Origin: Deltaproteobacteria bacterium UBA2385
Lineage (GTDB): Bacteria > Myxococcota_A > UBA796 > UBA2385
NCBI GenBank assembly: GCA_002343455.1
Contig: DDSR01000070.1
Span: 1-26,348 of the forward strand
DNA length: 26,348 bases
Reading direction: 5' to 3'
The notes beneath the pieces were generated by a model. It was not told the origin of the DNA. It ran no database searches and saw only the letters and a program-made list of their open reading frames with translations. Made by a program: the position numbers and the translations under genes. Positions 4,534-26,341 of this stretch are shown here, in pieces (within the stretch, counting starts at the first letter, position 1; every line of letters starts with the position of its first letter).

Positions 4534-4617
4534 GGTGCCTCCCTCCTCCTGGTAGCATCGCGGTCATGATCTCGTCTTCCCGGCTGGCGGACCGCACCGG
4601 CCTCGCCCGCGACGACG

Positions 4618-5595: not shown

Positions 5596-5633
5596 GGGAC
5601 CTCCGCGCCGTAGTCTACCCCCTCCTGGGGTGA

Positions 5634-5662: not shown

Positions 5663-5730
5663 ATACCCCTCCACCCACGAGCCCGGCGCCTGTAACGACG
5701 AGGCGACGGGCCCCTTGATAGAGGGCGCCT

Positions 5731-5735
5731 GGAGG
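5731..5735 (+). promoter_or_regulatory. Ribosome binding site that points to a CTG start
   Basis: GGAGG lies five bases before the CTG at 5741. Between the in-frame TAA at 5693 and the TTG at 5774 there is no ATG, GTG or TTG in this frame, and the TTG has no Shine-Dalgarno-like sequence before it and would remove part of the hydrophobic leader. Confidence 0.5.
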
Positions 5736-5740
5736 CACCT

Positions 5741-9228: not shown

Positions 9229-9243
9229 CTGGTGCGCGAGTAG
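9214..9243. repeat. 15-bp tandem duplication across a stop codon
   Basis: CTGGTGCGCGAGTAG occurs at 9214-9228 and again, identically, at 9229-9243. Each copy would encode LVRE and stop. The second copy is not translated. Confidence 0.95.
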
Positions 9244-9269
9244 CCGGTCCGGGTGCAGCTCGCGGTCCC

Positions 9270-10880: not shown

Positions 10881-10900
10881 CGGGGGATCCTGGGGGAGGC

Positions 10901-11677
10901 CTAGAAGCAGACCTCGTAGGGGGAGACGTAGCTGGAGCCGGGGAAGGTGGTGAGGCCCTCGTAGCAACCGTCGCCGACGCCGTCACCCAGGAACTCCGCG
11001 GTCACGGTGCCCAGCTCGGTGATGCTGAAGTACAGCTCGGTGCCGACCAGCTCCCAGTCGCCGCCGTAGTCGGGCCCGTAGAGCGGGAAGCTGAGGCTGC
11101 CGTCGTCCTCGAAGACCTGGCTGTGGCTGGTGATGCTGCTGGGGTACAGGCGGCACTCGTAGTAGGCGGACAGGTTGGTGCCGGTGCAGTGGTTGACCGT
11201 CGCGGTGGCCGGACCGACGATGTCGACCACCTCGTAGAGCACGACCGCGGTCTCGCTGTCGCTGTTGTTCGAGGTGACCGGCTCGTAGGTGGTCGTGGTG
11301 GCGCTGGCGCTCAGGACGAGGTCGTCGGCGCTCCAGGGCAGGGCCAGGGAGAAGGTCTTGCTGCTGGAGCGGGACTTGCGGACGGTGCCGAGGTTGCAGC
11401 TCACCGTGCTGCCCACCTGGGAGCAGCCCGAGGCCAGGGCGCTGAGCGTGCCCATGATGTGGGTGGTGGGGCTGGTGGCCGTCGGGGGGAGCTGGACGGT
11501 GACCGCGACGTTGGCCGCGTCGCGGCTGCCGGTGTTGGCGACCTGCACGGTCCAGACGCCGGCCTGGTCGACCTCGACCGAGCTGGGCGGGGTCAGGGTC
11601 GTGACCAGGTCCGGGCGGCTGGCGGCCTGCGCGCTGGAGAGGGTCAGGGCGGTCACGAGGAGGAGCGAGAGGGTCAT
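10901..11677 (-). CDS. Secreted DUF11/CARDB-like beta-sandwich protein
   Basis: The protein has 258 aa. MTLSLLLVTALTLSSAQA is a signal peptide with a cleavage site after AQA. Residues about 22-140 match the style of DUF11 repeats: PDLVTTLTPPSSVEVDQAG, then WTVQVANTGSRDAANVAVT, VQLPPT, and a Cys pair (CSQVGSTVSCNLG) that is usual in this domain. The C-terminal part (about 150-258) has four to six Cys and many aromatic and Gly residues, ends VSPYEVCF, and is not recognised. It lies directly upstream of the MopE/FG-GAP lipoprotein gene on the same strand. A role as an extracellular adhesion or scaffold domain is inferred from the family. Confidence 0.8.
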   Translation of the reverse strand: MTLSLLLVTALTLSSAQAASRPDLVTTLTPPSSVEVDQAGVWTVQVANTGSRDAANVAVTVQLPPTATSPTTHIMGTLSALASGCSQVGSTVSCNLGTVRKSRSSSKTFSLALPWSADDLVLSASATTTTYEPVTSNNSDSETAVVLYEVVDIVGPATATVNHCTGTNLSAYYECRLYPSSITSHSQVFEDDGSLSFPLYGPDYGGDWELVGTELYFSITELGTVTAEFLGDGVGDGCYEGLTTFPGSSYVSPYEVCF

Positions 11678-11824
11678 GGTGGGGGTCCTTCTGGAGGGGT
11701 GGGGAGCCGGGCCGTCTCCGACTCGAGCTCAGGTCAAGGCCCCAGCGGCCAGGCCGTTACAGCCGCCGGGAGAAAAATGGTGGACCGCGTGAACAGGCGG
11801 CTGCGGTTAGCCCCTTGGACCTCC

Positions 11825-11828
11825 GGAG
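11825..11828 (+). promoter_or_regulatory. Ribosome binding site supporting the GTG start at 11834
   Basis: GGAG lies five bases before GTG 11834. It favours this start over ATG 11777, which is in the same frame but would put about 19 polar residues before the signal peptide. Confidence 0.6.
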
Positions 11829-11833
11829 CGCCC

Positions 11834-13561: not shown

Positions 13562-15237
13562 TGTGGACCCTCCTCCTGCTCGGCGTGGCGCTCGCCTCTC
13601 CCTCCAGCTCGGTGCTGGTCCAGGCCGCAGAGGCCGAGCTGGCCCGCGCCACGGATCTGCGCCTGCCGGACTCTCCTCCGCCCTACCTGCTCAGCTACGA
13701 GCTGCTCGACGGCCAGGTCGCCAGCGTCGAGGCCTCCTTCGGGGCGCTGACCAGCACGGACCAGGGGCCCTACCGGGTGCTGCGGGTCGAGGTGCGGGTG
13801 GGCGACTACGCCCTGGACAACGGCAACTTCGAGGGCAGCTTCGGCGAGCGCTCCGGAACCACCCAGCGCCTGCTGCCGGACGAGGACGATGTGCTGGCGC
13901 TGCGCCGGGAGATCTGGCTGGCGACGGACGAGGCCTACAAGGGCGCCACCGAGCAGCTCTCGGGCAAGCTGGCGGCGCGGGAGGGCAGCACCCGCAGCTT
14001 CGGGCCGGATCTGTACCGGGTGGAGCCCCTGGTCACCGAGCCGGTGGAGTGGGGCGAGGTTCCGGCCGAGCCGCTGGAAGAGCTGGTGCGCGAGCTCTCG
14101 GGGCGGCTGGTGGGCCGCGGCCTGGAGGAGGGTCGGGCCAGCGCCCGCGCCTGGCAGGGAGCGCGGCTGCTGATCAGCAGCGAGGGGCACCGGGCCTGGA
14201 TCCCGACCGGCTACGCGGTGGTGCGGGTAGAGGCGGTGACCCGGGCCGAGGACGGAGCCCGGCTGCGGGATGTGCGCTCCTGGGTGGTGCGCGACGCGGC
14301 CAGCCTGCCCGAGCGTGAGCAGATGGGGGCCGAGGTCGACGCGATGGTCGACTGGCTGGTGGGCCTGCAGACGGCGCCGGTGGAGGGGGACTACCTTGGC
14401 CCCGTGCTCTTCGAGGGCCCGGCCGCCCTCGAGCTGTTCCGGCAGCTCCTGGCGGCGGAGATCTCCGGCACGCCGCCGATGGAGCTGCCCCCCGAGGACG
14501 TCGGCGAGGGCGGGCAGGTGCCGACGGCGCGCATCGGGCGGCGGCTGCTGCCGCTGGGCTGGAGCGTGGTCGACGATCCGGCCCGGGCCGAGGAGGAGGG
14601 CCTCGCCGGGGGCTATACGGTGGACTTTGAGGGGGTGCCGGCTCAGCGGGTCGAGCTGGTCGAGGACGGGGTGGTCCGCCGCCTGCTGATGAGCCGGGTG
14701 CCGCGGCAGGGGATGGAGGGCAGCACCGGCCACGGGCGCTCCCTGGGCAGCAACCGGCGCGAGGCGATGCCGGCGGCGGTGCGGATCGAGCCGGCCCGGC
14801 CGAAGGGCGAAGGGCGCCTGCAGAAGAAGGGCCTGCGGCTGGCTCGGCCGACGCTTCAGCCCTACCTGCTGGTGGTCGAGGAGATGGAGCCACCGGCGGT
14901 CTCCGAGGACTTCCAGGTGGCCTTCTCGGGCGAGGGCCCTCTGCCGGGCCTGACGCGGCCCACCCGCGCCTGGCGGCTGTACCCGGACGGGCGGCGGGAG
15001 CCGGTGCGCGGCCTCTCCTTCGTCGGCGTCGACCGCCGGGTGCTGCGCGACATCGTGCTGGCCGGGCGGACGGAGGATCCGGTCGGCGTGATGGACGCGG
15101 CCCCGGGCTCGCAGCGCTTCGGGATCGGCACGCTGGGCGGCTTGCCGGCGAGCTGGGCGGTGCCGGCGGTCCTGATCGGCGAGCTGGAGCTCTCGGGCTC
15201 GCCCGGGCGCGAGCAGCGGGTCCTGAAGATGCCCTGA
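13561..15237 (+). CDS. Exported TldE-like paralogue without the zinc motif
   Basis: The protein has 558 aa. MWTLLLLGVALASPSS is a short leader. The arrangement follows the upstream TldD-like protein: an N-terminal alpha/beta domain with YLLSYELLDGQVASVEASFG, then the long central block, then PAQRVELVEDGVVRRLLMSR (compare QRVSVVEAGILRGFLMSR upstream), then GPLPGLTRPTRAWRLYPDGR and a closing strand. Where the partner has HEVLGH, this protein has RQLLAA (294-299), and the C-terminal zinc Cys is absent. It should therefore be the non-catalytic subunit of a heterodimer, as TldE/PmbA is for TldD. The ATG shares its A with the upstream TGA, suggesting coupled synthesis at a fixed ratio. No other function is apparent. 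Confidence 0.88.
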   Translation: MWTLLLLGVALASPSSSVLVQAAEAELARATDLRLPDSPPPYLLSYELLDGQVASVEASFGALTSTDQGPYRVLRVEVRVGDYALDNGNFEGSFGERSGTTQRLLPDEDDVLALRREIWLATDEAYKGATEQLSGKLAAREGSTRSFGPDLYRVEPLVTEPVEWGEVPAEPLEELVRELSGRLVGRGLEEGRASARAWQGARLLISSEGHRAWIPTGYAVVRVEAVTRAEDGARLRDVRSWVVRDAASLPEREQMGAEVDAMVDWLVGLQTAPVEGDYLGPVLFEGPAALELFRQLLAAEISGTPPMELPPEDVGEGGQVPTARIGRRLLPLGWSVVDDPARAEEEGLAGGYTVDFEGVPAQRVELVEDGVVRRLLMSRVPRQGMEGSTGHGRSLGSNRREAMPAAVRIEPARPKGEGRLQKKGLRLARPTLQPYLLVVEEMEPPAVSEDFQVAFSGEGPLPGLTRPTRAWRLYPDGRREPVRGLSFVGVDRRVLRDIVLAGRTEDPVGVMDAAPGSQRFGIGTLGGLPASWAVPAVLIGELELSGSPGREQRVLKMP

Positions 15238-15258
15238 GCGGGGCTGTCGAAGATTTTT

Positions 15259-15288
15259 TGTCGAAAGGTGCAGATCGCCGATCACAAT
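15259..15288 (+). promoter_or_regulatory. Weak promoter candidate before the cyclic-nucleotide-binding genes
   Basis: TTGTCG (15259-15264) and CACAAT (15283-15288) are separated by 18 bases and match the sigma-70 boxes at four of six positions each. The region is locally AT-richer, and TGTCGAA occurs twice (15245-15251 and 15259-15265), which could also be a regulator site. The evidence is pattern only. Confidence 0.25.
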
Positions 15289-15361
15289 CGCGCGGCCTCG
15301 TCCCATCGGGTCTAGCCGAGATGGTGCATCCCATAGCGGGAACCATGAGGAGGCAGGCGCC

Positions 15362-15880
15362 GTGACAAGTCTTCATTCCCTGAGATCGCTCCGTTCGCTG
15401 CAGGCCTGCGGCGACCGGGACCTTCAGGCCTTCATCCGCCACGCGACGACGACCGACTTCCGGACCGAGACGGTGATCATCGCCCAGGGCCAGCCCGCGG
15501 TCGGGGCCTTCTTGATCGTCTCCGGGCGCTGCCGGGCCGAGGTCCAGCGCGGCGACCGCCGGATGGTGCTGGGCAGCCTGGGCCCCGGTGATCTGTTCGG
15601 TGAGCTGGGCCTGTACGCCTGCGGCCAGAAGCGCACGGCGACGGTCGTCGCGGAAGAGGACGTCAGCGCGCTGCTGATCCTGCCCGACGCCCTCAACCAG
15701 GAGGCGCTGCGGCCGGTGATCGACGAGCTGGAGCGGCGCGCGATGGCCAGCGTGGCCGATCGGATCCGCCGCAGCGCGGCCAAGGCCCGGCGCTTCTCGG
15801 ACGAGGACGAGGACGACGATCCCTCGGCCTCCTGGGTCGCCAGCGTGATGACCTCGCTGCGGCGGCTGGTCGGAGGTTGA
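15362..15880 (+). CDS. Cyclic-nucleotide-binding-domain protein, canonical site
   Basis: The protein has 172 aa, is cytoplasmic, and starts at GTG with GGAGG about 9 bases upstream. A cNMP-binding (CRP-type) beta-roll covers residues about 20-125. The phosphate-binding cassette reads FGELGLYACGQKRTATVVA, with the ribose-contacting Glu81 and phosphate-contacting Arg91 in place, so cyclic nucleotide binding is plausible. No DNA-binding helix-turn-helix follows. Instead there is a charged helix (ELERRAMASVADRIRRSAA) and an acidic run (SDEDEDDD) before a short basic tail. It is therefore not a standard CRP-type transcription factor and may act through protein contacts. The next gene begins after a single base and encodes another such domain, so the two probably work together. 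Confidence 0.85.
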   Translation: MTSLHSLRSLRSLQACGDRDLQAFIRHATTTDFRTETVIIAQGQPAVGAFLIVSGRCRAEVQRGDRRMVLGSLGPGDLFGELGLYACGQKRTATVVAEEDVSALLILPDALNQEALRPVIDELERRAMASVADRIRRSAAKARRFSDEDEDDDPSASWVASVMTSLRRLVGG

Positions 15881-15881
15881 G

Positions 15882-16556
15882 ATGGCGCCGGACCTGAGGC
15901 TCAACCGAGCCCTGCACGAGCTCCTCACCCGCTTCAAGGCCTGCCCGGTCGACGTGGCCGAGCTCCGGGCCCTGCTCCAGCCCCTCCCCCGCGAGGAGTT
16001 CCCGATCGGCGCCTCGATCTACCGGGAGGGAGAGCCCTCGGAGTGCCTGCACCTGCTGCTGGATGGCACGGTGCGGGTCAGCGCGGGGAGCCAGAAGACC
16101 GTGCTGACGACCATCAGCGCGCCGACCGTCCTCGGGCACCTGGGGGTGCTGACCGGCCTGCCGCGCAGCGCCTCGATCGACACGGTCAGCCCGGCGGTCC
16201 TCATCCGGATCGGCCAGGCGCAGGTCAGGGAGCTCAGCGCCGGATCGGGGGCGGGAAACCAGGCCTTCCGGCGCCTGATGCTGGCGACCATGGGTGGCCT
16301 GATGTCCGACACCAACCAGCAGCTCCAGGAGCTGGTGACCGAGTACGGCGAGTCCATCCCCAGGGGAGCGGCCCGCCTGCAGGGCGAGGAGCCGCCCCGG
16401 CCGCCCAAGGGTGGCGGGCGCTCGGGGGTGCCGGCCTCGCCCGGGCACGCCGCGGATCGGCTCAGCTCGGGCTTCGACCCCGATCTGCTGGACGAGCTGG
16501 AGAACATCCGCCTGGTCCAGACCGAGGACGACCGGCGCCACAAGTACAAGCGCTGA
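15882..16556 (+). CDS. Cyclic-nucleotide-binding-domain protein, altered site
   Basis: The protein has 224 aa and starts one base after the previous stop. A beta-roll domain covers residues about 30-135 (FPIGASIYREGEPSECLHL, LLDGTVRVSAG). The phosphate-binding cassette reads VLGHLGVLTGLPRSASID: the Arg (95) remains, but the Glu that normally holds the ribose hydroxyl is His86. Ligand affinity may therefore be lost or changed. After the domain come a helix (LMSDTNQQLQELVTEYGES), a Pro/Gly-rich linker, and a charged tail ending RRHKYKR. No DNA-binding domain is seen. Together with its neighbour it looks like a two-protein signalling module whose output is unknown. Confidence 0.82.
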   Translation: MAPDLRLNRALHELLTRFKACPVDVAELRALLQPLPREEFPIGASIYREGEPSECLHLLLDGTVRVSAGSQKTVLTTISAPTVLGHLGVLTGLPRSASIDTVSPAVLIRIGQAQVRELSAGSGAGNQAFRRLMLATMGGLMSDTNQQLQELVTEYGESIPRGAARLQGEEPPRPPKGGGRSGVPASPGHAADRLSSGFDPDLLDELENIRLVQTEDDRRHKYKR

Positions 16557-16570
16557 GCGCCGGGACCGCC

Positions 16571-17188
16571 TCAGCCCAGGCGGTGGTTGTGGGCCAGCCG
16601 GGTGTACTTGGCGGCCAGGGCCCGGTTGAAGGCCTCGTTGTCCGGCGGCAGGCTCTTCACCACCTGGCCGGGCATGCCCAGCACCAGGCTGCGGGCGGGC
16701 ACCTCGCGGCCGGCAGGCACCAGGGCGCCCGCGCCGATCACGCTGCCGGGTCCGATGCGGCAGCCGTCCAGCAGGGTGGCCTGGATGCCGACCAGGCAGG
16801 CGTCGCCGATGGTGCAGCCGTGCAGTACCGCCCGATGCCCGACGACCACGTCCTCGCCCAGGATCGTGGGGTCCTCGTCCCCCAGGTGGACGACGGTCCC
16901 GTCCTGCAGGTTGCTGCGCGCGCCGACGCGGATCTCGGCGATGTCGGCGCGCAGGACGCAGCCGGGCCAGACGCTGGCCTGCGGCCCCAGGTGGACCCGG
17001 CCGATCAGCATGGCGCCGGGGGCCACGTAGGCGTCCTCGGCGACCTGGGGCACGAAGCCGAGGTAGCGCTGGAAGAGGGCCCCGGGGAAGCGCCGCCGGA
17101 GGGTGGCCAGGGCGGCGTCGAGGGCGGCCAGGTCCGGCGGCGGGTGGCTGACCGTGACGACGCTGTCGGGGATGGTGCGCACAGCCAT
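16571..17188 (-). CDS. Gamma-class carbonic anhydrase family protein (left-handed beta-helix)
   Basis: The protein has 205 aa and is cytoplasmic. Hexapeptide repeats from about residue 50 to 170 build a left-handed beta-helix (VAPGAMLIGRVHLGPQASV, then NLQDGTVVHLGDEDPTILG). The zinc-site histidines of the family are present: His101 (VVHLG), His118 (VVGHRAVLHG) and His123. Arg80 and Asp82 (LRADI) and Gln95 (NLQDG) match the structural and catalytic positions of Cam-type enzymes. The acidic loop of archaeal Cam is short here, as in YrdA/CaiE/PaaY relatives, so activity cannot be assumed. The product would hydrate carbon dioxide or act as a related transferase accessory protein. A trimer is expected. 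It is convergent with the cyclic-nucleotide-binding pair, 14 bases away. Confidence 0.93.
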   Translation of the reverse strand: MAVRTIPDSVVTVSHPPPDLAALDAALATLRRRFPGALFQRYLGFVPQVAEDAYVAPGAMLIGRVHLGPQASVWPGCVLRADIAEIRVGARSNLQDGTVVHLGDEDPTILGEDVVVGHRAVLHGCTIGDACLVGIQATLLDGCRIGPGSVIGAGALVPAGREVPARSLVLGMPGQVVKSLPPDNEAFNRALAAKYTRLAHNHRLG

Positions 17189-17276
17189 GCGGGGGCTCCG
17201 AGCCGGGAGGAGGGGTGCGCTTTACCATGGCGGGTCCCCGGGGCTATGGTGGGCGCCAACGGACCCTGGAGAGGCG

Positions 17277-17606
17277 ATGATCCTGCGCGGCTTGACCCTT
17301 ACGGTTGTCTCCTTCGGCCTGAGCCTGCTCTCGGGCTGCTGCACGGGCGAGGTCTGCGCCTGCGAGGCGGCCTTCGAGGACGTCGAGGTCCAGGGCGCGG
17401 TCGACACGGAAGAGCTGCAGGCGGTGGTCGAGGCCGAGGGCGTCGAGAGCTACCTCTGGCTGGAGTGCGAGCCGGTCTGCATGTACGTCTTCCAGCGGGA
17501 TGTCCGCGGTCCGGACGCCGCGCCGCGGGAGTGCTCGGTCACCTACGAGGCCAACGGCGAGGGCGCCGTGGTGGACTGCCTGGTGCGGAGCTGGGGCCAG
17601 TGCTGA
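17277..17606 (+). CDS. Small Cys-rich lipoprotein of unknown function
   Basis: The protein has 109 aa. The ATG at 17277 has AGAGG close upstream. MILRGLTLTVVSFGLSLLSGC is a proper lipoprotein signal with lipobox L-S-G-C (Cys21). It has one of the more conventional leaders in the window, with a basic residue at position 4. The mature part is acidic and has several Cys (CCTGEVCACE at the start, then CEPVC, a further C, CLV and a terminal C), so several disulfides are likely in an exported product. I recognise no family. It stands alone between convergent and divergent neighbours and ends four bases from the GH1 stop. Confidence 0.72.
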   Translation: MILRGLTLTVVSFGLSLLSGCCTGEVCACEAAFEDVEVQGAVDTEELQAVVEAEGVESYLWLECEPVCMYVFQRDVRGPDAAPRECSVTYEANGEGAVVDCLVRSWGQC

Positions 17607-17610
17607 GCCC

Positions 17611-19053
17611 TCAGGGCTTCAGGGCGTTGGCCAGGGCGATCTCCCGGTAGTCCAGCGCCATCGGGCGCAGGCTGCGGGCCTTGGTGTCGAGATCGACCTC
17701 GGCGAGGCCGAAGCGCATCGCCATGCCGTGGTTCCACTCGTAGTTGTCGATCAGCGACCAGACGTAGTAGCCGCGCACATCGGCGCCCTGGTCGATCGCG
17801 TCGGCCAGGGCGTGCAGGTGGGGCAGCAGGAAGGCGCCGGTCGGATCGCCCTCCCAGTCGCTGGTGCCGTTCTCGGTGATGTAGATCGGCAGCCCGTACT
17901 CGCCCGCCAGTCCGGCGACCTCGCCCAGGCCCTCGGGGTAGCTGTCCCAGAAGCTGCCGACGGGCAGGAAGTCGAAGAGCGGGCTCTGCTGGAAGATCTG
18001 CACGCCCAGGCCGTCGACGGTGATCCGGGTGTAGTAGTTGATGCCGATGAAGTCCGTGCGGCCGATCAGATCGGCCCGGATCTCGTCGACCTCGCCGTCC
18101 AGATCGGGATCCCAGTGCCCCAGGATCGTCCCGTCGAGGAAGAGCCGGTTGTAGAGGTACTCGAAGTGCTCGACGGACTGCACGTCCTCGGGATCCTCGG
18201 GATCCAGGGGGACGGCGGCGGCGAGGTTGGGGGCGGCGCCGACCATGGCCGTGTCGTCGTAGGCGTGCACCGCGTCGTACATCGCCGCGTGGGCCTCGAT
18301 CTGGGCCAGCATCACCTGGAAGGCGGCCTCGGGGTTGATCACCCCGGGCGGGTTGGTGCGGTCCTCGGTCTGGAGCAGGTAGCCGGAGAGCACCACCGCC
18401 AGCGGCTCGTTGAGGGTGACCCAGATGTCGACGAGGTCCCCGAGCTCGCGCGCCGCGAAGCCCGAGTAGAGGGCGATGTGCCGCAGCATGCGCTCGCGGT
18501 CCACCCAGCCCTTGTCCTCGCAGGCGTCGAGGTCGTCGTGGCAGCCCTTGGCGTCGTGCAGCCAGGTGGGGATGGTGTAGTGGTTCAGCGTCAGCATCGG
18601 CTCCAGGCCGGCCTCGCGCATCGCCGAGAGGCGCAGGCGGTAGGCCTCCAGCGCCTCGGCGTCGACGAAGGCGGCCAGCTCCTCGACCGTCTGCACCTCG
18701 CCTGGATCCTGGGGGAAGAGGCGGCTCCACTCCAGGCTGGTCCGCAGGCTGCCGAGGGAGAGCTCCTGCGCCGCCATCGCGAAGTCCTGCTCGAACAGCT
18801 CCCAGTGGCCGGGGCCCTGTGAGAGGGGCTCGCCGCTGAGGTAGTTGCTGCTCTGGGCGACGAGCTCGGGGTCGGTCACCCAGACATACCAGTCGCTGCC
18901 GCGATCCTCACACTGCTCGGCCGGCAGGCTGGGGCAGCCCGGGTCGACCTGGAAGCCGGCCATCGAGGCCCCCCAGAGGAAACCATCCGGGAAGGCGCGG
19001 CCCTCGTCGGTGGGGTCGGGGTCGGGAGCGCAGGCCAGCAGGAGCAGGATCAC
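17611..19053 (-). CDS. GH1-family beta-glycosidase lipoprotein
   Basis: The protein has 480 aa from GTG 19053, which has GAGG five bases upstream. The frame continues 17 codons further but without signal character. The leader MILLLLACAPDPDPTDEG is very short, with Cys8 as the lipidation site. The glycoside hydrolase family 1 barrel covers almost the whole chain: FPDGFLWGASMAGFQ at the start, SLRTSLEWSRLFP, the acid/base Glu216 in VTLNEPLAV, IGINYYTRI, the nucleophile Glu394 in YITENGTSD, and GYYVWSLIDNYEWNHGM for the substrate-binding Trp region. Both catalytic glutamates are intact, so retaining beta-glycosidase activity (glucosidase, galactosidase or similar) at the cell surface is expected. 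Membrane-anchored GH1 enzymes are unusual compared with cytoplasmic ones. The start overlaps a small upstream ORF (GTGA). Confidence 0.93.
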   Translation of the reverse strand: MILLLLACAPDPDPTDEGRAFPDGFLWGASMAGFQVDPGCPSLPAEQCEDRGSDWYVWVTDPELVAQSSNYLSGEPLSQGPGHWELFEQDFAMAAQELSLGSLRTSLEWSRLFPQDPGEVQTVEELAAFVDAEALEAYRLRLSAMREAGLEPMLTLNHYTIPTWLHDAKGCHDDLDACEDKGWVDRERMLRHIALYSGFAARELGDLVDIWVTLNEPLAVVLSGYLLQTEDRTNPPGVINPEAAFQVMLAQIEAHAAMYDAVHAYDDTAMVGAAPNLAAAVPLDPEDPEDVQSVEHFEYLYNRLFLDGTILGHWDPDLDGEVDEIRADLIGRTDFIGINYYTRITVDGLGVQIFQQSPLFDFLPVGSFWDSYPEGLGEVAGLAGEYGLPIYITENGTSDWEGDPTGAFLLPHLHALADAIDQGADVRGYYVWSLIDNYEWNHGMAMRFGLAEVDLDTKARSLRPMALDYREIALANALKP

Positions 19054-19217
19054 GGAGACCTCGTTTGGTTCGAACCCTGTACCCACTCCCGCACCACCGG
19101 CCACACCTCGGCGTCGAGCAGGATGAGGGTCCGGACGGTGGCGCCCTGGAGCCGGGCTAGTTCGTCCAGCCCGCCTGAGGGGAGGGAGGCCATGGGGACA
19201 TCATGAGCGAGCCCCAT
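19050..19217 (-). CDS. Possible small ORF coupled to the GH1 gene
   Basis: This is a 55-aa frame beginning MGLAHDVPMASLPSGG and ending WVQGSNQTRSP. AGAAGG lies four bases before the ATG at 19217, and the TGA overlaps the GTG start of the GH1 gene (GTGA, 19050-19053), the arrangement of a coupled gene. The central part (LDELARLQGATVRTLILLD, then AEVWPVVREW) is a plausible amphipathic helix or strand. Third positions are mostly G or C, but so is the background, so composition does not prove coding. It could equally be leader sequence of the GH1 message. No family is recognised. Confidence 0.35.
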   Translation of the reverse strand: MGLAHDVPMASLPSGGLDELARLQGATVRTLILLDAEVWPVVREWVQGSNQTRSP

Positions 19218-19249
19218 GGTACCTTCTCCCCCCCTCACCCGGAGCGCCC

Positions 19250-20620
19250 TTGTCCAGTCCTCGCCTCGCCCTGCACTGGCAGATCCTGATCGGGATGGCC
19301 GCTGGGATGGTGGTCGGCCTGCTGGTCAACGCCTTCCAGGGGCCCCTGGACGCCGCCCGCCTCGCCAGCCCCCTGCTCGACGACGCGGCCGGCTTCGCCT
19401 CCAACGCCAACGCCTTCGTCGGCGACATGTTCTTGCGCTGCCTGCGCTTCATCGCCGTGCCGGTCGTGCTCTTCAGCCTGGTGGTCGGGGCCAGCAGCCT
19501 CAACGACCTGCGCAAGCTGTCCCGGATCGGCACCCGGACGGTGCTGCTCTACCTGTCGACCACGGCGGCGGCGATCAGCACCGGGCTGCTGCTGGCCAAC
19601 ATCGTCCGGCCGGGCAGCTTCCTGCCCGCCGAGCTGCGCGACCGGCTGGCCAGCGAGGTGCCCGCCGGGGTGGCCGAGAAGGTCGGGGGGGCCGCGCCCA
19701 GCGCCTGGTCTACCCTGCTGGACCTCGTCCCCATCAACCCGTTCGAGGCCATCGCCGACGGCAACATGCTCCAGGTGGTCGTCACGGCCCTGGCCATCGG
19801 CGGGGCCCTGACCCTGGTGCGCGAGGAGCTCTCCCGGCCGGTCATCCAGGCGGCCGAGGGCCTGACGGAGGCCATCATCAAGCTGGTCGAGGCGGTGATG
19901 AAGCTGGCCCCGCTGGCGGTCTTCTGCCTGCTGGCCAAGGTCATGGCCGGGATGGGGCTGGAGGTGCTGGGGGCCCTGGCGGTCTACACCGTCACGGTCA
20001 TCGTCGGCCTGGCGATCATGACCTTCGGGGTCTACCCCACGATCCTGCGCGCCCTGGCGGGCATCGGCCCCCGGCGCTTCTTCGAGGCCATCGCCCCGGC
20101 GCAGCTGCTCGCCTTCAGCAGCAGCAGCAGCGCGGCGACCCTGCCGGTCACGATGGACTGCGTCGAGAAGCGCCTGGGCGTCGGCGAGGAGGTCACCGCC
20201 TTCGTCGTGCCGCTCGGCGCCACCATCAACATGGACGGCACCGCCCTCTACCAGGGCGTCGCCGCCGTCTTCATCGCCCAGCTCTTCGGCGTGCCGCTCG
20301 ACCTGGAGGACCAGCTCACCATCGTCCTGACCGCGACCCTGGCCAGCATCGGCACCGCCGGCGTGCCCGGCGTCGGGCTGATCATGCTGGTCATCGTCCT
20401 GCAGAGCGTCGGCATGGACGAGGAGGTCATGAAGGGCGGCATCGCCATCATCTTCGGCGTCGACCGGCTGCTGGACATGTGCCGGACGACGACCAACGTC
20501 ACCGGAGACGCCATGGTCGCCGCCGTGGTGGGCGCCCGGGAGGGCGACCTGCTGGACGAGGCCCAGGTGCGCGCGCGGCGGGTGGCCGAGGAGCTGGCGG
20601 GGCTGGACGAGAATCCCTGA
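19250..20620 (+). CDS. Dicarboxylate/glutamate:cation symporter (DAACS/SDF family)
   Basis: The protein has 456 aa and is an inner-membrane secondary transporter that couples uptake of acidic amino acids or C4-dicarboxylates to Na+ or H+. TTG 19250 is preceded by GGAG at five bases. The N-terminus SSPRLALHWQILIGMAAGM enters TM1 directly. The re-entrant loop HP1 has the serine run FSSSSSAATLP (289-299), TM7 has NMDGT (327-331), HP2 has GTAGVPGVG (368-376), and TM8 has DRLLDMCRTTTNVTGD (405-420). Asp409 and Arg412 correspond to the archaeal GltPh residues that hold the substrate amino group and side-chain carboxylate, so an acidic substrate is likely. All core motifs are intact. It is divergent from the GH1 gene. 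Confidence 0.96.
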   Translation: MSSPRLALHWQILIGMAAGMVVGLLVNAFQGPLDAARLASPLLDDAAGFASNANAFVGDMFLRCLRFIAVPVVLFSLVVGASSLNDLRKLSRIGTRTVLLYLSTTAAAISTGLLLANIVRPGSFLPAELRDRLASEVPAGVAEKVGGAAPSAWSTLLDLVPINPFEAIADGNMLQVVVTALAIGGALTLVREELSRPVIQAAEGLTEAIIKLVEAVMKLAPLAVFCLLAKVMAGMGLEVLGALAVYTVTVIVGLAIMTFGVYPTILRALAGIGPRRFFEAIAPAQLLAFSSSSSAATLPVTMDCVEKRLGVGEEVTAFVVPLGATINMDGTALYQGVAAVFIAQLFGVPLDLEDQLTIVLTATLASIGTAGVPGVGLIMLVIVLQSVGMDEEVMKGGIAIIFGVDRLLDMCRTTTNVTGDAMVAAVVGAREGDLLDEAQVRARRVAEELAGLDENP

Positions 20621-20677: not shown

Positions 20678-21010
20678 ATGACCGACCTCGACGCCACCTT
20701 CGCCGCGCTCGCCGACCCCACCCGTCGCGCGATCCTCGCGCGCCTGGCCTGTGGCGACGCCTCGGTGATGGAGCTCGCGGCGCCCTTCGACATGAGCCTG
20801 CCGGCGATCTCGCGGCACCTCAAGGTGCTGGAGCGCGCGGGGCTGATCACCCGCGGGCGTGACGCGAAACGAAGGCCCGCCAGCCTGCGTGCCGAGGCGC
20901 TGGACGAGGTGGCCCGCTGGGCCGAGCACACGAAGCGAGCCTGGGAGGCGCGCTTCGATCGACTGGACGAGTACCTCAAGCAGGAGAACGACGATGGCAC
21001 GAGCGATTGA
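20678..21010 (+). CDS. ArsR-family winged-helix regulator
   Basis: The protein has 110 aa. ATG 20678 gives the typical family start MTDLDATFAALADPTRRAI; GTG 20648 in the same frame would add ten residues (FVTPPDHPT) and overlap the presumed operator. The winged helix spans about residues 12-85: DPTRRAILARL, then SVMELAAPFDMSLPAISRH and LKVLERAGLITRG. The metal-binding Cys motif of arsenic sensors (CxC) is absent, so this belongs to the non-metal branch usually encoded beside an AHSA1/SRPBCC protein. The next gene is exactly that and overlaps by 17 bases. It probably represses its own operon through the AT-rich repeat upstream. Confidence 0.92.
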   Translation: MTDLDATFAALADPTRRAILARLACGDASVMELAAPFDMSLPAISRHLKVLERAGLITRGRDAKRRPASLRAEALDEVARWAEHTKRAWEARFDRLDEYLKQENDDGTSD

Positions 21011-21467
21011 GACCTGGGAGATGGAGCGCGAGATCGTGCTCACACGGGTGTTCGACGCGCCTCGCGAGCGTGTGTTTCGCGCCTGGACCGACCCCGATCG
21101 TATCGGCGCCTGGTTCGCGCCCAAAGGATTCGCCTGCCGGGTCCGGCAGGCGGACGTCCGCGTCGGCGGGATGCTGCGCTTCGACTTCGTCGGGGATGAA
21201 GGCCTGATCTACGACAACCGCATCACCTACCTCGAGATCACCTCGCCCAGCCGGATCGTCTTCGACCACGGCGCGGACAAGGACGACGATCCGGGCCAGT
21301 TCCGCGTCACCTTGCTGTTCGACGCCCAGAGCAACGGCAAGACCGTGCTGACCCTGCGTCAGCTCCACCCCACCAAGGAGCAGCGCGACGGCGGGATTGG
21401 CTTCGGCGCGGTCGAGATCGGCAACGGGACGATGGACAAGCTCGCCGAGTACCTGCGCGCGGAGTGA
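20994..21467 (+). CDS. SRPBCC/AHSA1-domain protein
   Basis: The protein has 157 aa and is cytoplasmic. It starts inside the end of the ArsR gene. The START-like helix-grip fold is evident: REIVLTRVFDAPRERVFRA, WTDPDRIGAWFAP, then VRVGGMLRFDF, YLEITSPSRIVFDH, and the C-terminal helix ending MDKLAEYLRAE. Proteins of this family paired with ArsR regulators are widespread, with proposed hydrophobic ligand-binding or Aha1-like roles that are mostly unproven. A second possible start is the ATG of MEREIVL seven codons downstream; the first was kept because of its overlap with the regulator. It is convergent with the HEAT-repeat gene. Confidence 0.93.
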   Translation: MARAIETWEMEREIVLTRVFDAPRERVFRAWTDPDRIGAWFAPKGFACRVRQADVRVGGMLRFDFVGDEGLIYDNRITYLEITSPSRIVFDHGADKDDDPGQFRVTLLFDAQSNGKTVLTLRQLHPTKEQRDGGIGFGAVEIGNGTMDKLAEYLRAE

Positions 21468-21486: not shown

Positions 21487-22302
21487 TCAGCGCGCCAGGA
21501 GCCGCCGGGCCACGCTGGCGACGCTCTTGTCGGGATCCTGCGCCATCGCCTGGACCTGCGTCAGGCTGACCGCCCGCGCGCTGTCCAGCCGCTCCAGCGC
21601 CCGCAGGGCCTTCATCCGCACGCGCGCCTCGGGGTCGGACAGGCCGCCGACCGCGGTGTCCCAGAGGTCGGCGAGCCCCAGCCAACCGATGGCCTGCATC
21701 GCGGCGGCCCGGACCTCGTAGTCGGAGTCGCTGCTGCCGCGCAGGACGAGGTCGGCCCGCGCCGCGCCGTCCGCGCGCCCGGCCAGCACCTGCAAGGCGG
21801 TGGCCCGCACCCGGCCGGACTCGTCCTCCATCGCCTCGGCCAGACCGGCCAGGGCCAGCCCGGGCTCGGCCTTGCCGAGCACGTCGAGGAGCGCGGCCCG
21901 CGCCTCGGGCACGGGCTCGTCTCGGAAGAGGCCGATGACCGCCTCGGCCTCGACCCCTCCGGCCAGCACGGCGGCCTGGGTGAGGCCCCCTCGCCAGTGC
22001 TGGGGCACGCCGCCGCGGCGCAGGCGGTCGACCAGCACGACGCCGGCCACCGGGCCGTGGAAGTCGGGGCTGGTGAAGAGGGGGACCATGGTGCGGGAGA
22101 GCACGGGCTGGCCCTCCCAGGCCAGGGCGGCCTCGTCCGGTGCGCTGCGCCAGGCGAGGGCGACCCGGGCGTCGTGGCGCTCCTGCCAGGTGGGGGCCGA
22201 GAGGGCGGCCCGGTCGAGCTCGACGGTCGAGCGGGCGCTGAGCGCGTCGAGGTGGGGCGGGGCGGCCAGGGCGGCCAGGGTCAGCAGGGCGGTGATGAGC
22301 AT
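21487..22302 (-). CDS. Exported HEAT-repeat protein
   Basis: The protein has 271 aa. The ATG at 22302 has GGAG seven bases upstream and shares a base with the stop of the upstream arginine-deiminase gene (TGATG). MLITALLTLAALAAPP is a short signal peptide. The mature chain is a series of 30-35 residue helical pairs of HEAT/PBS-lyase type, clearest in the second half: VPEARAALLDVLGKAEPG, then SGRVRATALQVLAGRAD, DYEVRAAAMQAIGWLGLAD, EARVRMKALRALERLDSA and KSVASVARRLLAR. Such repeats form protein-binding solenoids. As the third gene of the deiminase operon, it could present or recognise a partner or substrate of the two enzymes, or be unrelated; the sequence alone cannot decide. Confidence 0.85.
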   Translation of the reverse strand: MLITALLTLAALAAPPHLDALSARSTVELDRAALSAPTWQERHDARVALAWRSAPDEAALAWEGQPVLSRTMVPLFTSPDFHGPVAGVVLVDRLRRGGVPQHWRGGLTQAAVLAGGVEAEAVIGLFRDEPVPEARAALLDVLGKAEPGLALAGLAEAMEDESGRVRATALQVLAGRADGAARADLVLRGSSDSDYEVRAAAMQAIGWLGLADLWDTAVGGLSDPEARVRMKALRALERLDSARAVSLTQVQAMAQDPDKSVASVARRLLAR

Positions 22303-24068
22303 CAGTCGACTCCAAGGAGATGATCGGCCTCGTCCCACCAGCTGGCGGTCGGGGTGCGCATGGTGTTGCTGCCGCAGTGAACCTCGCCCCAGTTGGCGTG
22401 GTAGGTGTTCCAGTCGTCGAGCCAGTGCGGGACGATGCCCGCGGGCAGCAGGGCCTCGATCTCGGCGACAAAGGGGTCGTCGGCGACGTCCACCCCGTCC
22501 TCGCGCAGGAAGGGGTCGGGCATGAAGGCGTGGAGCTCGCCGCCCATGGGGTAGACCGTCATGTTGGCGGTGCCGGGGATCAGCGCGAGCGCGGCGCCGC
22601 AGACCCGGCTCTGCTCGAAGAGGGCCGGGATGCGCAGGATGTCGGCCTCGTCCAGGTCGAGCTCCTCGATCATGATCTCGAGGGCGGGCTCGATGTTCTC
22701 GGCCTGCATGTCCTCGTTCTCGCGCTGCATGGCCGAGTCGGCCTGCATGTCGCCGACGGTGCGGTAGCCGTGGGTGCTGCGGTACTTGGAGAGGGAGGTG
22801 TCGGGGTCCAGGCTCTCCAGGAATTCCCAGCCGAGGTCGGTGTCGGCGACGACCAGGACGAAGCCCTTGTCGCGGTCGGGGTCGGGCAGGAAGGTCATGA
22901 ACTCGTCGACGTGGCCCACGCAGAGCCAACCCACGTCCAGCTCGAAGGGTTCCTGCACGGCCTGGTCCTCCAGGGCGGTGCGGAGGTCCAGGTGGGGCCG
23001 GGTGGTGCGGGTGTAGCCCCAGTAGACGCGGCCGTAGGGGTAGCTGACCCCGTCGACGGTGACCGGCGGGCTGATCTCCAGGTTGCCGAAGTAGTCCTGC
23101 GAGCTGGCCATGCCGCTGCCGTAGGTGACGACGGCGAGGCCGGGTCCGCCGAAGGTCTGGACGAGTCCGTCCAGATACTGTCCGCGGCTGGTGCGGATCG
23201 AGTCCAGGACCACGTCCAGGCGCAGGCCGGGGGCGGTGGCCGTGCCGTACTCGATCTCGTCCTGCAGCCAGACGTCGTAGTCGTAGGAGGCCGCCGGGTA
23301 GGACTCGAAGGCGCCGCCGAGGATCTCGGTGTAGCCGGCCAGCATCGCGGCGTTGCCGTAGGCCCCCGGGTAGCTCATCGCGTTCTGGAGCTCGCCGTCT
23401 TGCAGGTGGTGGTTGAGGATCAGCGGCGAGCTGCGCAGCGCCAGCTCCCAAGCGCCGACGCCCTCGATCGAGAGGTCGAGCAGGGCCTCGACGCGGAAGG
23501 TGGAGAACTCCACCCGCAGGTCGAGGCCGTCCAGCGGACCCTCGATGCGGGCGCTGGGGGAGCCGGAGTCCAGCAGCAGGGCGCCATCCCGCCAGACGCG
23601 GACGCTGGAGGTGTCGCCGGAGAGGCGCAGCTCGAGCGCCTCGCCTGCGCCGAGGGCCGGCAGGGTCAGGACGGAGAGGTCGTCCTCGGCGCTGCTGACG
23701 CGGGTCTGGCTCCAGTCGGCCCGGTCGTCCTCGTCGTCGTCGTCGAGGTTGGGGATGCCGAGCACCGGGCCCTCCAGGCCGTCCCAGGGGTGCAGGCCGC
23801 TGGTGCCGCCGTCGCCGCTGGTGCCGCCGTCGCCGCTGGTGCCGCCGTCGCCGCTCGTACCGCCACCGTCGCCGCTCGTACCGCCACCGTCGCCGCTCGT
23901 ACCCCCACCGTCGCCGCTCGTACCCCCGCCGTCGGCGGTGGTCTCTCCGCCGTCGCCGCTGGTGCCGCCGTCGCTCAGCGTGCCTCCGCCGTCCTCCGGC
24001 GGGCCGGTGTCCTCACCCAGGGGTCCTTTCTCGCCCGCACAGGCCAGCACCAGGAGCAGCCAGGTCAT
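22302..24068 (-). CDS. Protein-arginine deiminase (PAD family) lipoprotein, copy A
   Basis: The protein has 588 aa. Enzymes of this family convert protein arginine to citrulline using calcium. MTWLLLVLACAG is a very short lipoprotein leader (Cys10). A DGGTSG-type linker follows (about 20-92). A PAD_M-like segment starts at PNLDDDDEDDRADW (107-119), whose Asn/Asp spacing resembles the calcium sites of vertebrate PADs. The catalytic domain occupies about 215-588. It carries Asp270 (VWLQDEIEYG), the landmark DYFGNLEISPPVTVDG, His386 and Asp388 (LCVGHVDEFMTFLPDPD) and the nucleophile Cys565 (YHANWGEVHCGSN), matching Asp350, His471, Asp473 and Cys645 of human PAD4. The position of PAD4 Arg374 is Tyr316. 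The PAD_N domain is absent. The order of motifs rules out the Porphyromonas-type deiminase. It is the second gene of a three-gene operon. Confidence 0.94.
   Translation of the reverse strand: MTWLLLVLACAGEKGPLGEDTGPPEDGGGTLSDGGTSGDGGETTADGGGTSGDGGGTSGDGGGTSGDGGGTSGDGGTSGDGGTSGDGGTSGLHPWDGLEGPVLGIPNLDDDDEDDRADWSQTRVSSAEDDLSVLTLPALGAGEALELRLSGDTSSVRVWRDGALLLDSGSPSARIEGPLDGLDLRVEFSTFRVEALLDLSIEGVGAWELALRSSPLILNHHLQDGELQNAMSYPGAYGNAAMLAGYTEILGGAFESYPAASYDYDVWLQDEIEYGTATAPGLRLDVVLDSIRTSRGQYLDGLVQTFGGPGLAVVTYGSGMASSQDYFGNLEISPPVTVDGVSYPYGRVYWGYTRTTRPHLDLRTALEDQAVQEPFELDVGWLCVGHVDEFMTFLPDPDRDKGFVLVVADTDLGWEFLESLDPDTSLSKYRSTHGYRTVGDMQADSAMQRENEDMQAENIEPALEIMIEELDLDEADILRIPALFEQSRVCGAALALIPGTANMTVYPMGGELHAFMPDPFLREDGVDVADDPFVAEIEALLPAGIVPHWLDDWNTYHANWGEVHCGSNTMRTPTASWWDEADHLLGVD
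23800..23937 (-). repeat. Tandem 18-bp and 21-bp repeats encoding the DGGTSG linker
   Basis: Read on the plus strand, three identical 18-base units (23800-23817, 23818-23835, 23836-23853) are followed by four 21-base units (from 23854, 23875, 23896 and 23917) with one to a few substitutions. All keep frame and encode Gly/Ser/Thr/Asp repeats between the lipidated N-terminus and the deiminase. Near-identity in unit DNA suggests copy number may vary. Confidence 0.93.
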
Positions 24069-24072
24069 CGGC

Positions 24073-25641
24073 TCAGTCCCCCATCAGGTGGCGGGCGTCT
24101 TCCCACCAGGAGCCGCCGGGGGTGCGCCGCGTGTTGCTGCCGCAGTGCACCTCTCCCCAGGCCGCGTGGTAGGTGCTCCAGTCGTCGAGCCAGTGGGCCT
24201 CGACGCCGCTGGGCAGCAGGTCCTCGATGATGGTGATCATCGGATCGCTGGAGAGATCGTCGTCGTCGGTGCGCAGGAAGGGGTCGGGGATGAAGGCCTT
24301 GACGGTGTCGCCGCTGGGGTAGACCGTCATGTTGGCCGTGCCCGGGATGAGCGAGAGCGAGTAGCCGCCGCAGAGGCGGTTGGCCTCGAAGAGGGCGGGG
24401 ATGCGCACGATGTCGGCGTCGTCCAGGCCCAGCTCCTGCTTCATGATCTCGATGTTGGGCTCGATGTACTCGGCCTGCAGGTCCTGGTTGACCAGCAGCA
24501 GCTCATCGTCCTCGACCATCTGGCCGATCGTGTCGAAGCCGTGGGTGGGCCCGTAGCGGGGCAGCTCGGTCTCGGGGGCCATCTCGGAGATCAGGTCCCA
24601 GCCGAGCGCGGTGTCGGTGACCCACATCACGAAGCCCTTGTCGCTGTCGGGGTCGGGCAGGAAGGTGATGAACTCGTCGACATGACCGACGCAGAGCCAG
24701 CTGACGTCGAGCTCGAAGGGGCGCTGGACCTGCTGGGACTCCAGCATGGTGCGCAGATCCTCGTGCGGGGCCAGGGTGCCGTTGCGGCCCCAGTAGGCGC
24801 GCCCGTAGGGGTAGTGGACCCCGTCGACGGTGACGGGCGGGCTGACCTCGAGGTTGCCGAAGTAGTCCTGGGAGGAGGAGCGCCCCTGGCCGTAGCCGAT
24901 GACGGCGACGCCGGGCTCGGCCAGCTTGGGCGGCAGGGCGTCGAGGTACTGGCCGTTCTGCGAGCGGATGCTGTCCAGCACGAGGTCCATGTGCAGGCCG
25001 GGCGCGGTCTGCGTGGCGAACTCGATCTCGTCCTGGATCCAGACGTCGTAGCCGTAGCTGGCGACCTTCCAGCCATCGAAGGCGTCTCCCAGGCCGTCCT
25101 CGAAGCCCCTGATGAAGGCGGAGTTGCCACCGAAGCCGGTGTACTCCATCGCCATCTCGTACTCGCCCTGTTGCAGATGGTGGTTGAGGATGAGGGGGGC
25201 GGACTCCAGGCTGAGCGCCGCCTGGGCCAGGGGGCCGTCCTCGTCCTCGTGGCCGAGCGACAGCTCCAGGCCGGCCAGGACGCGGAAGTCGGAGAACTCG
25301 ACGCGCAGCTCGCGGCCGGAGTCGGGGCCGCTGAGGGTGGCTTGCAGGGTGGAGGCGTCCAGCAGCAGCTCGTCGTCCAGCCAGACCCGGCTGCGCTCGG
25401 CGTCGCCGGTCAGGGTCAGGCTGAGGCTCTGGCCCTCGAGCAGGGCGGGGAGGCTGAGGCTGGCGAGGTCGTCGTCTCCGGCCACCTGGAGGTCCTCCCA
25501 GTCCATCACCTCGTTCTCGTCGTCGTCGTCGAGGTTGGCGATCCCGATGACCGCCTGGCCGTCCAGCGCTGCCCAGTCGGAGTCGACCGGCTCCTCGCGA
25601 TAACAGGCGAGGCCGAGGGCCAGCATCAGCAGCGGGGACAT
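24073..25641 (-). CDS. Protein-arginine deiminase (PAD family) lipoprotein, copy B
   Basis: The protein has 522 aa and is the first gene of the operon; copy A follows after four bases. The ATG at 25641 has GGAG seven bases upstream. The leader MSPLLMLALGLACYREEPV places the lipidated Cys at 13, and there is no long linker. The PAD_M-like part begins ANLDDDDENEVMDWED (35-50). The catalytic residues are Asp204 (VWIQDEIEFA), His320 and Asp322 (LCVGHVDEFITFLPDPD) and Cys500 (YHAAWGEVHCGSNTRR). DYFGNLEVSPPVTVDG and QELGLDDADIVRIPALF closely follow vertebrate PAD4 (FGNLEVSPPVTV, ELGLAESDIIDIPQLF). As in copy A, the PAD4 Arg374 position is Tyr (250). The two copies share long near-identical blocks but differ at the N-terminus and in surface loops, so the duplication is not recent. 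Calcium-dependent citrullination at the cell surface is expected. Confidence 0.94.
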   Translation of the reverse strand: MSPLLMLALGLACYREEPVDSDWAALDGQAVIGIANLDDDDENEVMDWEDLQVAGDDDLASLSLPALLEGQSLSLTLTGDAERSRVWLDDELLLDASTLQATLSGPDSGRELRVEFSDFRVLAGLELSLGHEDEDGPLAQAALSLESAPLILNHHLQQGEYEMAMEYTGFGGNSAFIRGFEDGLGDAFDGWKVASYGYDVWIQDEIEFATQTAPGLHMDLVLDSIRSQNGQYLDALPPKLAEPGVAVIGYGQGRSSSQDYFGNLEVSPPVTVDGVHYPYGRAYWGRNGTLAPHEDLRTMLESQQVQRPFELDVSWLCVGHVDEFITFLPDPDSDKGFVMWVTDTALGWDLISEMAPETELPRYGPTHGFDTIGQMVEDDELLLVNQDLQAEYIEPNIEIMKQELGLDDADIVRIPALFEANRLCGGYSLSLIPGTANMTVYPSGDTVKAFIPDPFLRTDDDDLSSDPMITIIEDLLPSGVEAHWLDDWSTYHAAWGEVHCGSNTRRTPGGSWWEDARHLMGD

Positions 25642-25666
25642 GGGGCGCTCCGGGTTTGCGGCAGCT

Positions 25667-25693
25667 TAGCGCGCGAGGAGGCCCGTCGCGCTA
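25667..25693. promoter_or_regulatory. Inverted repeat between divergent PAD and DTW genes
   Basis: TAGCGCG (25667-25673) and CGCGCTA (25687-25693) are perfect inverse complements separated by 13 bases. They fill the middle of the 61-base space between the start at 25641 (minus) and the start at 25703 (plus). It could be an operator controlling one or both genes. With seven-base arms in GC-rich DNA, chance is not excluded. Confidence 0.35.
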
Positions 25694-25702
25694 GAGAGTG
25701 GA

Positions 25703-26341
25703 ATGAGCCCCCGCTGCGAACGCTGTGACAAGCCCACCGGGATCTGTGTCTGTGACCGGGTCCGCCCGCGTGAGGTCCAGACCCGGGTGCTAGTCCTGCA
25801 ACACCCTGAAGAGCCCGACTCGGTGCTGGGGACCGCCCGCCTGCTGGAGCTGGCCCTGCCCTCGCAGGTGCGGGTGGTCGTGGGGCAGAGCTGGGGCTCC
25901 CTCGCCGATGCGTGGGGTGAGCCCCTCGGCAACGAGGGCTGGGCCGTGCTCTGGCGCGGGCAGCTGCCTCGGGAGCTCAGTCCGGAGGAGGACGCCGCCG
26001 CCTTCCTCAGCCTGGACCGCGCGGGTCGTCGGAGCCCGACGGTCTGGCAGGGCGTGGTCGTGCTGGACGGGACCTGGGCCCAGGCTCGGAGCCTGTGGTG
26101 GCGCAACCCCTGGCTGCTGCGGCTGGGCAGGATCCTGCTGCGCCCGAAAGAGCCCTCGATCTACGGCAAGGTCCGCCGCGAGCCGCGGCCCGAGGCGGTC
26201 TCGACCTTGGAGGCGGTGGCCGAGGTCCTGGCCTGGAACGGCGAGGGCGACGAGGTGCGCGCCGAGCTGCGGGCCCTGATGCGCACGATGGTCCAGCGGG
26301 CCCGCGACACGGCACCCCCCGGGCTGGGCAAGCGACGCTGA
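25703..26341 (+). CDS. DTW-domain tRNA-uridine aminocarboxypropyltransferase
   Basis: The protein has 212 aa and is cytoplasmic. Members of the DTW family (TapT in bacteria) transfer the aminocarboxypropyl group of S-adenosylmethionine to uridine in tRNA, making acp3U. The family's N-terminal Cys cluster is present (Cys5, Cys8, Cys15, Cys17 in CERCDKPTGICVC), followed by VLVLQHPEEPDSVLGTARL (29-47) and the name-giving motif in VVLDGTWAQA (Asp122 to Trp125). A C-terminal segment RPKEPSIYGKVRREP and STLEAVAEVLA matches the usual LRKEP..STLEA region. All key motifs are present and the length is normal. It lies divergent from the deiminase operon, to which it is probably unrelated in function. 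It ends seven bases before the window edge. Confidence 0.93.
   Translation: MSPRCERCDKPTGICVCDRVRPREVQTRVLVLQHPEEPDSVLGTARLLELALPSQVRVVVGQSWGSLADAWGEPLGNEGWAVLWRGQLPRELSPEEDAAAFLSLDRAGRRSPTVWQGVVVLDGTWAQARSLWWRNPWLLRLGRILLRPKEPSIYGKVRREPRPEAVSTLEAVAEVLAWNGEGDEVRAELRALMRTMVQRARDTAPPGLGKRR

Follow-up and report, generated by a model that had tools for sequence, protein, structure and literature searches.

Exported citrullination in bacteria is known from the Porphyromonas enzyme PPAD. Peptidyl-arginine deiminases (PADs) related to human PAD4 also occur in bacteria; Cummings et al. (2021, PMC8826395) count 295 bacterial species with a PAD, 69 of them Proteobacteria, describe the Cyanothece enzyme as calcium-dependent and active, and see the functions of bacterial and fungal PADs as fertile ground for research (section 10). 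Positions 1 to 26,348 of contig DDSR01000070.1 of Deltaproteobacteria bacterium UBA2385 (assembly GCA_002343455.1), called the window, carry two adjacent PAD genes, copies B and A, followed by a gene for a HEAT-repeat protein. It is fairly probable that this B-A-HEAT set is an exported, calcium-dependent citrullination module of Myxococcota, with the HEAT protein as its adaptor, regulator or client.

All three genes are on the minus strand. Copy B (522 amino acids; 24,073-25,641) has a lipoprotein-like leader, a PAD_M-like calcium domain and a PAD_C catalytic domain; copy A (588 amino acids; 22,302-24,068) has these same parts plus a Gly/Asp/Ser/Thr-rich repeat linker. The two genes are separated by 4 bp and lie where the first-pass annotation, made from the sequence alone, had placed them. 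The HEAT gene (271 amino acids; 21,487-22,302), which the first pass had left unreported, encodes a protein with PF02985 and PF13646 matches that starts with a hydrophobic stretch like a signal peptide. Its start codon ATG and the TGA stop of copy A share one base (TGATG). Copies A and B are 59% identical across 500 aligned positions and are the sole PF03068 matches found in the source genome (6.76 Mb in 496 contigs, 87.6% complete).

The claim of two neighbouring PAD genes was borne out by profile search. PF03068, with a cut-off of 25 bits, scores 217.5 bits (E 4e-64) in copy A and 218.4 bits (E 2e-64) in copy B. Sequence searches of solved structures returned 27 distinct sequences for each copy, every one a PAD; human PAD4 ranked first, with E 3.1e-40 from copy A and 1.5e-41 from copy B. 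A profile built from 68 family sequences covers chain residues 135-663 of PAD4, the middle and catalytic domains, with E 1.5e-81. The overlay on human PAD4 that the annotation had proposed agrees, as the fold of copy B aligns with PAD4 over 475 residues, beginning at PAD4 residue 112. Pfam gives no PAD_N match in A or B at E 1e-3, and about 30 residues, leader included, stand ahead of PAD_M in copy B. The copies were also rightly set apart from the Porphyromonas enzyme: neither matches PF04371 at E 1e-3. NCBIfam assigns no family to either copy.

PAD4 residues D350, H471, D473 and C645, which we take to be catalytic, align to D270/H386/D388/C565 in copy A and D204/H320/D322/C500 in copy B, exactly the set named at first pass; all four columns are invariant in the 68 aligned family sequences, both copies included. 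Roles of the calcium ligands and of D388, the calcium switch of animal PADs, are likewise assumed from PAD4. The columns of N153, D155, D157, D165, E351, E353, S370 and E411 are invariant (68/68). Those of Q349 (Gln in 65/68), D369 (Asp in 65/68), F407 (Phe in 67/68) and D179 (Asp or Glu in 68/68) are nearly so; D168 is Asp in 47 of 68 with Gln in copy A, and the D176 column has 36 Asp and 27 Asn among the 68. From these columns we infer that A and B are probably calcium-dependent peptidyl-arginine deiminases. Two window-type PADs (P0101 and P0116) carry a long Cys-rich repeat insertion of CSD...CE units within the catalytic domain.

PADs were surveyed in the 377 genomes of the phylum, with 30 loci read from the phylum PF03068 search and 60 from fetched stretches; about two dozen listed places stayed unclassified. 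The PADs were divided by their score against a window-type profile into set 1 (at least 490 bits) and set 2 (below 300 bits). Set 1 comprises 41 non-redundant proteins. They come from 37 of the 377 genomes, plus a named metagenome-assembled genome (MAG; L004) outside that number. Six duplicates were dropped from the linkage count (L001, L002, L045, L070, L075 and L083), the last four of which share sequence with named loci. Fragment L073 (293 bits, no downstream sequence) was counted in set 2, and on the tree it falls with the window clade.

The HEAT gene comes next on the same strand in 38 of the 39 set-1 PADs with at least 600 bp of downstream sequence, the length required for the count. The sole exception is window copy B, which is followed by copy A and then by the HEAT gene. 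The remaining two set-1 PADs have 1 bp and 411 bp left downstream; the 411 bp (L102) show by eye the beginning of a HEAT partner with a lipobox-like leader. In set 2, none of the 54 PADs with enough downstream sequence (49 in the phylum, 5 outside it) is followed by a HEAT gene, and five more had too little. Seen from the other side, all 38 HEAT matches in the non-redundant loci are PAD-adjacent, and the HEAT gene always comes after the PAD.

The seed of the HEAT profile contained the window protein and four others encoded next to a PAD, whose matches are built in, together with seven more from a context-free protein search. Loci collected by protein similarity (n=11) gave a HEAT homologue after the PAD in all five named Myxococcota loci (L003, L004, L005 from Enhygromyxa salina, L006 from Plesiocystis pacifica, and L013); none was found in the other six, from Vibrio, Bowmanella, Endobugula and three Methanophagales (one of them, L012, with 325 bp downstream only). 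Plasmid searches returned only three Streptomyces records and one Embleya record. No set-1 locus besides the window has two PADs side by side. In two genomes, G317 (L065/L066) and G376 (L082/L102), a window-type PAD coexists with one from the other set.

The linkage bears on whether the HEAT gene is a mere passenger beside an ordinary bacterial PAD that happens to be duplicated in tandem. PADs are common in the phylum, with PF03068 matches in 94 of the 377 genomes, and the 1338 proteins at E 1e-3 among 7999 candidates scored make this a large family; both suit this explanation. It is nevertheless very improbable against a linkage of 38/39 versus 0/54 that spans 36 genomes and PADs down to 35% identity with copy B. 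Neither does any other neighbour recur: when the 308 called open reading frames (ORFs) of 38 set-1 loci were clustered, PAD was found in 38, plain BLAST placed HEAT in 28, and no other family reached more than 3 of the 38 neighbourhoods.

The HEAT protein matches PF02985 at 43 bits and PF13646 at 41.5 bits. Its model (predicted local distance difference test, pLDDT, 95.8) is an all-helical solenoid but for one hairpin, and its nearest solved structures are designed alphaRep and Armadillo repeats, a generic similarity only. A metal enzyme resembling deoxyhypusine hydroxylase was considered and found no support: no His occupies an invariant or nearly invariant column, and the structural match is a generic solenoid one at rank 45.

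PADs and HEAT partner alike have exported-type N-termini. Copy A begins with MTWLLLVLA-C10 (24,039-24,068, minus strand, from the sequence and a lipobox heuristic) and copy B with MSPLLMLALGLA-C13 (25,603-25,641, minus strand, from the sequence); a short hydrophobic stretch precedes each lipobox-like cysteine, and 65 of 68 aligned rows have Cys at this position of the leader. A simple lipobox rule of our own, applied alike to all proteins, passes 32 of 41 clade members and 39 of 240 neighbouring ORFs. The nine misses include L003, L061 and L076, whose true starts are invisible because they reach a contig edge. In the contig-edge PAD L003:18-400 the N-terminus (NIVVIVADDLGF) resembles a sulfatase start; it is possibly an assembly chimera or a fusion. 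Between the anchor Cys and the PAD domains of copy A lies the tandem-repeat linker (23,796-23,970, minus strand), composed of TSGDGG-type units; Tandem Repeats Finder reports a 21-bp period with 8.2 copies and 87% matches, and a further row with an 18-bp period. Export of the PADs is likely on this evidence and lipoprotein anchoring is plausible.

A working model can be put together from these features. B, A and HEAT would be transcribed as one operon. The PADs would be two-domain (PAD_M and PAD_C), calcium-dependent cysteine hydrolases that convert peptidyl-arginine to citrulline; they would be exported, probably as lipoproteins, with copy A held on its long repeat linker. Their site of action would be the periplasm or the cell surface, where calcium would track the outside level. 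Arginines of envelope or outside proteins would be the targets, and the enzyme would be loaded by environmental calcium, which may explain the tolerated loss of the switch Asp. The exported HEAT solenoid would recruit, tune or receive the modification, and would most likely be an adaptor, regulator or client that chooses the targets. A bolder form of this model, to which we give slightly under an even chance, is that Myxococcota evolved a two-protein, envelope-exported citrullination system that forms a third PAD branch and never occurs without its HEAT solenoid (adaptor, regulator or obligate client).

Several observations weigh against the module reading. Both window leaders lack the usual Lys or Arg near the N-terminus, their n-regions being uncharged. 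PAD4 R374 and R639 presumably contact the substrate backbone; the R374 column is Arg in 31 of 68 sequences, with Gln in both window copies, and the R639 column is not conserved. At the switch column of D388 the 68 sequences have Asp (46), Gly (17) or Asn (5), and both window copies have Gly (Gly310 in A, Gly244 in B). Because of the Gly at D388 and the Gln at R374, calcium control and substrate recognition may differ from those of animal PADs. According to PMC8826395, Gly at the switch is the state of actinobacterial and fungal PADs and Asp is confined to the animal and cyanobacterial clade; the family aligned here has both states.

Further counterpoints concern the partner. Linkage of genes is not proof of physical interaction between their products. 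The HEAT neighbour of L049 matches the seed profile weakly, at 27 bits. A phylum-wide scan with a profile of 42 HEAT proteins, covering the 377 genomes at about six scored candidates per genome (weak copies can be missed at this depth), separated strong matches of at least 131 bits from the rest at no more than 95 bits among the matches listed. Strong matches in genomes without PF03068 occur in one genus only, g16, in 10 genomes; an eleventh g16 genome (G184) has HEAT fragments of 90 and 95 bits only. Three HEAT paralogs are unlinked to PADs in the PAD-bearing genomes G363 and G216. Since the HEAT protein occurs without a PAD in g16 and as unlinked paralogs, it is not solely a PAD chaperone. 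As far as sampled, window-clade PADs are accompanied by HEAT, and HEAT can occur without a PAD.

The g16 HEAT proteins (L106-L114 and L120) form one clade with support 100/99, which is consistent with a single loss of the PAD. A gene for an HlyD-type membrane-fusion protein, mostly divergent, is near the HEAT gene at 6 of 10 g16 loci, a pattern that ordinary synteny inside one genus would give; Pfam was run on 3 of these 6. At two of the three unlinked paralog loci, a beta-eliminating-lyase gene is upstream. A common enzyme replacing the PAD beside the orphan HEAT genes was not found; neither of these two genes is common to all the loci, and there is no PAD among the neighbours. The apparent orphans L118 and L119 are probably split PAD-HEAT pairs, because the HEAT genes lie at contig edges and further contig edges of the same genomes carry PADs or pieces of them.

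This asymmetry is also relevant to a narrower explanation, in which the HEAT protein is a dedicated PAD client, possibly citrullinated at Arg70 of a (T/S)RAGxxRF hairpin so as to switch envelope or prey binding. Clade PADs are unseen without HEAT in loci with downstream sequence and HEAT exists without PAD, so the enzyme appears to need its partner more than the reverse. Arg70 (codon 22,093-22,095, minus strand) is the only invariant column among 42 aligned HEAT proteins; it lies in a (T/S)R(A/T)GxxRF-like motif within the predicted hairpin, between two short strands ahead of the solenoid. The alignment was made without L003, L044 and L067, whose start choice was off; L003 and L067 do have the TRxG motif. 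Against the client explanation, all 10 of the 10 g16 orphans, whose genomes show no PF03068 match, retain Arg70, which may thus be conserved for reasons other than a PAD. The three unlinked paralogs have Thr, Gly and Asp at this column; two of them, L115 (TRSG) and L116 (SRPG), carry a look-alike of the motif shifted by an insertion, and for this reason the three count for neither side. A dedicated client is, on balance, unlikely, and Arg70 as PAD target was dropped from the module reading itself on account of the PAD-less orphans, being kept in the client explanation only.

One-to-one pairing, overlapping genes and co-export would also suit an enzyme and its inhibitor, with the HEAT protein as an immunity-like partner sparing the cell's own envelope proteins from an exported PAD; orphan HEAT genes would then resemble orphan immunity genes. 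We regard this as improbable. Neither PAD has a delivery or toxin domain by Pfam, a single HEAT gene serves two PADs in the window, and HEAT follows PAD in all 38 pairs.

The substrate may also be asked about from the active site. Residues that handle the guanidine group are conserved in the aligned family and the backbone contacts R374 and R639 are not, a pattern that would fit periplasmic substrates such as free arginine or small guanidines, with a nutrient or pH role, rather than proteins. We put little weight on this possibility: a PAD_M domain, the long linker in copy A and a solenoid partner dedicated to the enzyme all suit protein substrates, as does a fold that follows PAD4 over the length noted above.

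The PAD tree places the window clade among its relatives. It has 76 rows and was inferred under LG+C20 by a quick method, with Shimodaira-Hasegawa-like approximate likelihood ratio test (SH-aLRT) support only. The rows include 43 from set 1 and 24 of 50 full-length other PADs (22 taken at random, plus L066 and L103); among the 43, L104 and L105 repeat parts of L057 and L069. A branch of length 0.73 and support 100 separates all 43 set-1 rows, together with the L073 fragment, from the other rows. With support 99, human PAD4 groups with gammaproteobacterial and archaeal PADs (L007-L012), and two Streptomyces PADs fall in set 2, apart from the window clade. The phylogeny that had been suggested, made with one human row, two Streptomyces rows and no cyanobacterial or fungal row, separates the window copies from human PAD4 with support 100. 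The label 'vertebrate-type' given at first pass is not upheld: PAD_N is missing, the switch is Gly, R374 and R639 are not conserved, and the branch is separate.

Copies A and B group with the PAD of a genus-mate (L003) with support 100, the inner order being unresolved. At 59-62% identity among the three, the A/B duplication is no recent event; its age is about that of the split from L003. A second PAD copy beside L003, cut off at the contig edge, is possible.

The archaeal PADs beside PAD4 are an observation in their own right. They come from three Methanophagales MAG contigs (L008, L010 and L012) and have an N-terminal extension; PAD_M scores 63 bits in L008 and 65 bits in L010, the two that were scanned, and a gene for protein-glutamine gamma-glutamyltransferase (transglutaminase) lies just upstream of the PAD at all three loci. 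PMC8826395 considered its one archaeal PAD match to be a misattribution. The gammaproteobacterial PADs of this group, from Bowmanella (L009), Vibrio amylolyticus (L011) and Endobugula (L007), also have PAD_M; in the stretches fetched for them, neither the archaeal transglutaminase nor the HEAT partner has a match.

The three-gene set is flanked by a convergent gene for an AHSA1-type protein (20,859-21,467, plus strand) and a divergent gene for a DTW-domain protein (25,703-26,341, plus strand), both assigned by Pfam. A 61-bp intergenic region (25,642-25,702) between copy B and the DTW-domain gene likely holds the operon promoter; a promoter and terminator scan found none of either, with no sigma-70-type match (shuffled means 0.1 and 0.5). 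Elsewhere in the window (2,738-20,620), Pfam identifies genes for Amidase_2 (N-acetylmuramoyl-L-alanine amidase), RlaP nucleotidyltransferase, DUF11, FecR, RCC1 repeats, FG-GAP, the TldD C-terminal domain, a cNMP-binding domain, GH1 and an SDF symporter. The window contains no tRNA.

Bacterial PADs are already known, and membership of A and B in the family is ordinary. No description of the near-obligate PAD-HEAT pairing and its export was found in the open-licence literature searched. The bacterial role of citrullination is largely open, and a PAD clade with a conserved genetic partner makes the substrate question testable. By the loci classified, the clade occurs in no fewer than 37 of the phylum's 377 genomes; among its carriers are Enhygromyxa salina and Plesiocystis pacifica, both marine myxobacteria in culture. 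Variation at the switch across the aligned family provides a series on how PAD calcium control can change outside the cytoplasm. If the bolder form of the model is true, citrullination in bacteria would be a post-translational modification made outside the cytoplasm and directed by a defined targeting subunit.

Compared with known systems, Porphyromonas PPAD (PF04371) belongs to a different family from A and B. Human PAD4 and the other animal PADIs contain PF03068, PF08527 and PAD_N; the window copies lack PAD_N, lie on a separate branch and differ from them in the Gly at D388, the unconserved R374 and R639 and the exported-type leader. The three-domain cyanobacterial PADI described in PMC8826395 is also a bacterial PAD but has PAD_N and the switch Asp; the paper mentions bacterial outgroup PAD sequences (section 10), among which the window clade could be. 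PADs acting on lasso peptides (citrulassins) in Streptomyces (PMC12971885) show a bacterial PAD with a defined client, as in the client explanation; there the client is a lasso-peptide natural product, and the part of the source cited mentions neither a HEAT partner nor export. The two-domain actinobacterial and fungal PADs are like the window copies in having PAD_M-like and PAD_C domains and no PAD_N, and, according to PMC8826395, Gly at the switch. Two annotated Streptomyces PAD loci, which stand outside the count of 54, have no HEAT partner, and Streptomyces and Embleya PADs share 24-32% identity with copy B; the two Streptomyces PADs in the tree lie on the other side of the branch with support 100.

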